A stretch of DNA of 64,000 bases from Methanolobus psychrotolerans (lineage in GTDB: Archaea > Halobacteriota > Methanosarcinia > Methanosarcinales > Methanosarcinaceae), in NCBI RefSeq assembly GCF_002243045.1, contig NZ_MBKP01000008.1, forward strand, positions 1 to 64,000, written 5' to 3'. The notes beneath the pieces are model-generated. The model worked only from the letters and a program-made list of their open reading frames with translations. It had not been told where the DNA came from and ran no database searches. Both the position numbers and the translations under genes were made by a program. The stretch's first letter is position 1. Every line of letters starts with the position of its first letter. Below are positions 47,073 to 47,628 of this stretch, in pieces.

Positions 47073-47461
47073 TTTCGAGTAGCTCGTTACATGATTATTA
47101 TATTGATTTTACGGGTTATATCCATTTCAGGTTTTTATATTTTGTTCCTGGATAACGGGTGTCTATAATCACAAAGGCTTTTGATGAAATTAGTTAAGTT
47201 TTCATTGTCTGAAAAAAACTTAATTAACATGTGGCAAAGAAAGTATTAAACGCAATATCTGCGTGTTTGTTGATTTAAACCCTATATATTATGAACTGCA
47301 ATTAATATCTGAGACCATTTTTGTTTTAAAAAATTCCCCATGTACCTATCTCCAATGTATTATTTTTATGGGATACTATATAAATTTTTATGTAGATTTG
47401 ATAATAATTACAGGTAATTCAGATTATTCTGCATTAAATAAGAGATGTTTAAGGACAACAC

Positions 47462-47574
47462 GCCGAGGTTGGGATTTGAACCCAAGCACTCCTTCCGGAG
47501 AAACCGGTCTCGAGCCGGTCGCGTATGGACTCCAGCGCAATTGAAACTGGATTAGTCCGCTCTGCCACCTCGGC
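47462..47574 (-). tRNA. tRNA-Ser(CGA), intron-containing
   Basis: Acceptor arms GCCGAGG and CCTCGGC close the gene. The anticodon stem-loop is ACCGG-CTCGAGA-CCGGT with anticodon CGA. A long variable arm (TTCTCCGGAAGGAG) and T arm (TTGGG-TTCAAAT-CCCAA) make it a class II serine tRNA. Total length is 113 bases, but removing 28 bases from the D arm leaves exactly 85 with a normal D loop (GAGCGGACTAA). No CCA is encoded. A TATA-like TTTTAATAGA lies about 33 bases upstream on the minus strand. Confidence 0.88.
47525..47552 (-). other. Putative 28-nt tRNA intron in the D arm
   Basis: On the minus strand the segment between GGACTA and ACGCG is extra relative to any serine tRNA. It folds with its flanks: GACT pairs with AGTC and CCAG with CTGG, leaving AAT as a bulge on the 5' side and CATA on the 3' side, and GCG/CGC can close the base. 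This is a relaxed bulge-helix-bulge, the substrate of archaeal tRNA splicing endonuclease. Splice points are ambiguous by one base (47524-47551 is equivalent). Confidence 0.65.
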
Positions 47575-47628
47575 ACTTGGCACTTTGCTTTGAAGGTCTT
47601 AATCTATTAAAATGTATCGTGGGGATGT

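Follow-up and report, generated by a model that had tools for sequence, protein, structure and literature searches.

In the standard account of archaeal tRNA splicing, the architecture of the splicing endonuclease (EndA) is tied to the intron repertoire, and reviews assign homodimeric EndA a narrow specificity, with a strict motif and introns at position 37/38 only (PMC4033280, PMC4090602, PMC6379350) and the canonical bulge-helix-bulge (BHB) as the only motif cleaved (PMC4033280; PMC6379350 Table 1). PMC8707768 disagrees, stating that homodimers also cleave bulge-helix-loop (BHL)-like motifs, and the Archaeoglobus enzyme excises 37/38 introns of BHL form when the substrate is full-length pre-tRNA (PMC6379350). 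Non-canonical tRNA introns have been described in ‘three thermophilic euryarchaeal methanogens’ (PMC3218864), and multiple introns are listed for Methanopyrus kandleri and Methanothermobacter thermautotrophicus (PMC4033280). A survey of archaeal tRNAs by OTTR-seq includes no Methanosarcinia (PMC12247713).

Here, we describe a 28-nt segment within the D arm of a tRNA-Ser(CGA) gene of the methanogen Methanolobus psychrotolerans that, judged from its sequence and that of its relatives, is very probably an archaeal tRNA intron of the protein-spliced kind, placed at 21/22, a non-canonical position. The literature searched, which did not extend to key older papers and supplementary tables, contains no description of a D-arm intron in tRNA-Ser(CGA); tRNA databases may already include it.

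The tRNA-Ser(CGA) gene and its copy number

The gene lies in a 64,000-nt stretch of contig NZ_MBKP01000008.1, analysed in full and referred to as the window. A first-pass annotation had proposed a 113-base gene from which removal of 28 bases would leave an 85-base serine tRNA; coordinates and lengths proved correct, and once 47525-47552 is removed ARAGORN calls an 85-nt tRNA-Ser(cga), excision thus restoring a standard tRNA. The features are as follows.

47462..47574 (-), tRNA-Ser(CGA) gene, precursor form, 113 nt (match to RF00005; ARAGORN Ser(cga) once spliced)
47461 (-), discriminator G
47553..47574 (-), 5' exon, 22 nt, ending ...GGACUA at nucleotide 21 (BHL cut rule; same as intron-less orthologues)
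47525..47552 (-), intron, 28 nt (AUCC...GUCCAU), position 21/22 (exactly missing in f3, f5 and f6 orthologues; length and loop vary among relatives)
47462..47524 (-), 3' exon, 63 nt, starting ACGCG at nucleotide 22 (BHL cut rule; same as intron-less orthologues)
47555..47558 (-), central helix, 4 bp, exon strand GGAC, including D-loop G18-G19 (minimum-free-energy fold; 100% of cells paired, n=24 distinct sequences)
47527..47530 (-), central helix, 4 bp, intron strand GUCC (minimum-free-energy fold; comparison of relatives)
47552..47554 (-), 5' bulge UAA, 3 nt, cut UA^A (minimum-free-energy fold; alignment of flanks; cut rule)
47547..47551 (-), intron helix, 5' strand UCCAG (comparison of relatives)
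47531..47535 (-), intron helix, 3' strand CUGGA (comparison of relatives)
47524..47526 (-), 3' splice region AUA, cut AU^A; the D stem closes the surrounding loop and there is no outer helix (minimum-free-energy fold; sequence)
47510..47512 (-), anticodon CGA, in a regular anticodon arm of 5 bp and 7 nt at 47503-47519 (ARAGORN)
47605..47619 (-), probable archaeal promoter made up of a BRE-like CGATACA and the TATA box TTTTAATA, ~31-45 nt upstream of the gene

Base pairing is perfect in the acceptor, anticodon and T arms. The Rfam tRNA model RF00005 matches 47461-47574 with a greatly oversized D loop when a short region is scanned (39.7 bits, E 5.4e-07); the Rfam scan of the whole window at the gathering threshold lists nothing. 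ARAGORN finds no tRNA in the native window sequence because it permits introns in the anticodon loop only, and the selenocysteine (SeC) call that it makes when such introns are allowed, its sole output for the unspliced gene, is spurious. Any tRNA finder restricted in this way will report such genomes as being without tRNA-Ser(CGA). A 93-aa open reading frame runs antisense across the tRNA gene (window 47263-47544 (+), ...RTTRRGWDLNPSTPSGETGLEPVAYGLQRN); it is likely spurious and could be annotated as a protein.

A BRE/TATA-like block similar to that of the window, CGATACC-TTTTTAAGA / TATATAAT, lies upstream of the gene in 27/27 Methanolobus loci, and this conservation suggests that the gene is probably transcribed.

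The first-pass annotation had named a second complete tRNA-Ser(CGA) in the genome, with the present copy unexpressed, as evidence that would count against an intron. A search of the organism's own genome lists 39 tRNAs, including Ser(GCT), Ser(GGA) and Ser(TGA), and no other Ser(CGA), in a list that is itself incomplete, as Trp is unlisted and the tRNA-Ser(CGA) gene of the window is also missed. Two genome-wide pattern scans, one of the T arm with one mismatch allowed and one running from the Ser(CGA) anticodon to the T arm, each return the window copy as the only Ser(CGA). T-arm-like sites considered as a second copy (L039-L048) turned out to be a tRNA-Pro and fragments at contig ends. The case that the window gene is the only tRNA-Ser(CGA) of the genome is, on these searches, strong rather than absolute.

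Distribution and history of the intron

We collected Ser(CGA) genes from relatives with the pattern CTCGAGA...GGTTCRARTCC, to which 52 of 60 related genomes contributed one. The insert stands at the identical site in 27/27 Methanolobus genomes. Across the class Methanosarcinia, the exact intron-start motif is matched in 93 of 238 genomes, and a same-site insert occurs in more than 60 records of the collection of named genomes, a scan of which extends the intron to Methanococcoides, Methanohalophilus, Methanomethylovorans, Methanosalsum and Methanohalobium as well as to ANME-2, Argoarchaeum/GoM-Arc1 and Methanothrix. By family, it is present in f1, f2, f4 and part of f7 and absent from f3 and f5. 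Beyond the class, the motif is matched by two genomes, G285 and G367; the locus of the former (L190), when read, has an intron of 16 nt. Insert length ranges from 16 nt (L124) to 44 nt (L173), and the loop is variable. The intron is thus genus-wide and widespread in Methanosarcinia, and no oddity of one strain. Three exact-motif matches labelled Clostridia, Desulfosporosinus and Bacillota (L107, L150, L165) do not belong to this tRNA.

Several carriers have further peculiarities. L124 and L190 share the shortest D-arm intron and a variable-arm region that, at ~60 nt, is unusually long and may reflect a second insert. In Methanothrix and relatives, a second insert of constant length, ~30 nt, lies in the T loop alongside the D-arm intron, TTCAA[AATGG...CAGGAA]AATCCC (L108, L117, L126, L132, L147, L149, L153, L155, L168 and L174), such that the Ser(CGA) gene of this group apparently contains two non-canonical introns in one tRNA. 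In ANME-2 (f2), a ~60-nt element, TCGAAAATCG...CGATTTTCTTAT...GCCTCAG, breaks Ser(CGA) copies at differing positions (L055, L159, L172, L189) and resembles a small mobile repeat that lands in tRNA genes; one of these archaea (G056) has an element-free copy too (L101).

Broken copies in ANME-2 genomes (L055, L159, L172), together with the failure of ARAGORN on the native gene, could be taken to mean that a 28-nt insertion has likewise left the Methanolobus gene dead or in decay. We regard this as extremely improbable, given that the genome searches returned no other Ser(CGA), that the acceptor, anticodon and T arms of the gene pair perfectly, that the promoter is conserved and that the same-site insert is kept throughout the genus.

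Within the same order, f3 and f5 have orthologues without the insert, as does f6 elsewhere in the class; in these families the gene reads ...GGACTAAYGCG.... Removal of the 28 nt from the window gene yields the exon junction GGACTAACGCG, identical to that of the intron-less orthologues. One orthologue from f6 (L188, genome G060) lacks the D-arm intron and has an apparent canonical 37/38 intron instead. The Methanosarcina-like genera g7, g11 and g2 (L180-L185, L187) have a different Ser(CGA) gene without an intron, GCCCAGGTAGTCTAG..., and in these the original intron-bearing gene seems to have been replaced, which may explain why Methanosarcina-centred surveys did not stress the intron. The assignment of these genera to Methanosarcina is a probable one, in keeping with the lack of that genus in the scan of named genomes.

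One old gain, followed by losses in f3 and f5 and by replacement in Methanosarcina, would be a simpler history than several gains. That true introns of similar form arose several times independently at a favoured site would fit the patchy spread (f1, f2 and f4, a subset of f7 and two genomes from beyond the class, with f3 and f5 lacking the intron), and transposition of archaeal tRNA introns has been proposed for Thermoproteales (PMC4090602); with site and terminal motif identical in all carriers, however, we consider independent gains unlikely and prefer a single descent.

Splice motif and proposed processing

The extra 28 nt had been read in the first-pass annotation as a D-arm intron in a relaxed BHB, with pairings GACT/AGTC and CCAG/CTGG and bulges AAT and CATA. 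Same-site inserts, intron-less orthologues and covarying helices support the intron itself, and the pairings do exist, but their register is one base off: the exon GGAC of the precursor is paired with GUCC of the intron, the 5' bulge is UAA, the intron helix is UCCAG/CUGGA and the 3' side is AUA. This register is the minimum-free-energy fold of the window precursor (z = -2.38) and fits all relatives, whereas the U-A pair of the earlier register would fail in those with GGACA or GGACC; it also gives the correct junction under the usual cut rule, with cuts at exactly the intron ends first proposed.

The motif is indeed relaxed, yet is a bulge-helix-loop rather than a bulge-helix-bulge. GAGC and CGCG, outside the central helix, do not pair directly as a strict hBHBh' would require, and the D stem offers the only possible closure for the larger internal loop around the 3' splice site, which therefore lies in a D-stem-closed loop. 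A central helix, one 3-nt bulge and an intron helix, with the other splice site in a loop, make up the relaxed HBh' form. Archaeal splicing cleaves after the second base of each bulge, a rule obeyed by the canonical intron of the genome's own elongator tRNA-Met (L028; bulges UAG and AUA, read from sequence). Applied to UAA and AUA, it gives cuts at UA^A and AU^A, and hence position 21/22. As the repeated A yields the same product, the junction could equally be written 22/23; the motif favours 21/22.

Among 24 distinct flanks from relatives, all 24 have the 4-bp central helix GGAC/GUYY, the 3-nt bulge and the first three intron pairs; the intron helix begins UCC/GGA or UCU/AGA and the bulge is UAA, CAA or AAA. 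The insert ends are constant, UCY...RGA-GUYY-NNA (start AUCY; end GGA or AGA, GUYY, NN), with a free middle, and all loci fit GUYY even when those four bases are left unconstrained in the search. Standard pairing fills 95.8% of pair cells in these flanks, 13 cells show two-sided changes, and 0/500 shuffles reach the observed pairing or covariation score; in slid registers, pairing drops to 21-59%. The intron helix covaries among relatives, and covariation in the central helix is limited to G-C/G-U because its exon side is tRNA sequence and cannot vary. Shuffled inserts yield the motif geometry in ~0.06% of cases, a rarity that, set beside its occurrence in 24/24 flanks, argues against chance. 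The unconstrained minimum-free-energy fold lacks the BHL motif in 44/61 relatives, and the folding of one sequence by itself would therefore be no proof of it; in every one of these that was evaluated, the BHL fold nevertheless comes no further than 4.5 kcal/mol from the minimum (median cost 1.2, maximum 4.5 kcal/mol; 65 precursors).

The hairpin is stable and belongs to the minimum-free-energy fold of the full-length RNA, as would be expected were the insert kept in the mature molecule as an extended D arm of an unusual 113-nt serine tRNA. Such retention appears very unlikely: the hairpin occupies G18-G19, which the tRNA elbow requires, the insert varies from 16 to 44 nt with a free loop and is precisely absent from sister families, its ends match splice-motif geometry in 24/24 distinct flanks, and the Methanothrix genes have another insert within the T loop of the same tRNA. 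An intron accounts for the 28 nt far better than any alternative, because site and ends are constant while length and loop vary across many genera, and because the gene is single-copy, with precise intron-less orthologues, a conserved promoter and covarying splice-motif helices. We conclude that the intron is probably functional.

Its removal can be proposed as follows. In the precursor, exon GGAC would pair with GUCC at the intron end, beside the bulge UAA and the intron helix UCCAG/CUGGA, with the 3' splice site AUA in the internal loop closed by the D stem, in a relaxed BHL motif. With G18-G19 held in the central helix, the precursor presumably cannot form a normal elbow. A homodimeric two-domain EndA would cut UA^A and AU^A, an archaeal RtcB-type ligase would join the exons into the 85-nt tRNA, and splicing would then free G18-G19 for the D-loop/T-loop elbow.

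The splicing endonuclease and comparison with known introns

The genome encodes one EndA open reading frame of 363 aa with two PF01974 domains, consistent with the single ~300-370 aa protein with two endonuclease domains that marks the homodimeric (alpha'2) class, and its best PDB matches are the Archaeoglobus-type homodimer entries 1r0v/1rlv, over residues 27-345. By sequence, EndA here is of the homodimeric two-domain type, as in nearly all relatives, intron-bearing or not. The tension between this intron and a strict methanogen endonuclease, to which the first-pass annotation had drawn attention, is therefore real.

We think it likely that an ancient relaxed BHL D-arm intron has been maintained across mesophilic Methanosarcinia by homodimeric EndA. 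If so, relaxed motifs outside the anticodon loop are natural substrates of homodimeric EndA, at odds with the usual rule, which reserves their efficient splicing for (alpha-beta)2 and epsilon2 enzymes; the gene fits the PMC8707768 view of homodimers. A conserved natural BHL substrate in culturable methylotrophic methanogens makes the homodimer question directly testable.

Three known systems are the closest. The strict hBHBh' intron at 37/38 of the genome's own elongator tRNA-Met likewise has a 4-bp central exon-intron helix and a 3-nt bulge cut after its second nucleotide, has an identical 3' bulge, AUA, and is presumably removed by the same EndA; the Ser(CGA) intron differs from it in its D-arm site, 21/22, and in lacking an outer exon helix. 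The non-canonical introns of other methanogens (PMC3218864, PMC4033280) are alike in kind, although at least the two named hosts belong to other lineages. The relaxed HBh'/BHL introns of Thermoproteota and Nanoarchaeota (20/21, 22/23, 25/26 and others) share the D-arm site, the relaxed motif and the small size, but are served by a heterotetrameric (alpha-beta)2 EndA, whereas the present intron occurs with a two-domain homodimer-type enzyme in a largely mesophilic methanogen lineage. The Ser(CGA) intron, then, belongs to a known kind, but neither its host lineage nor the type of EndA that accompanies it would have led one to expect it.
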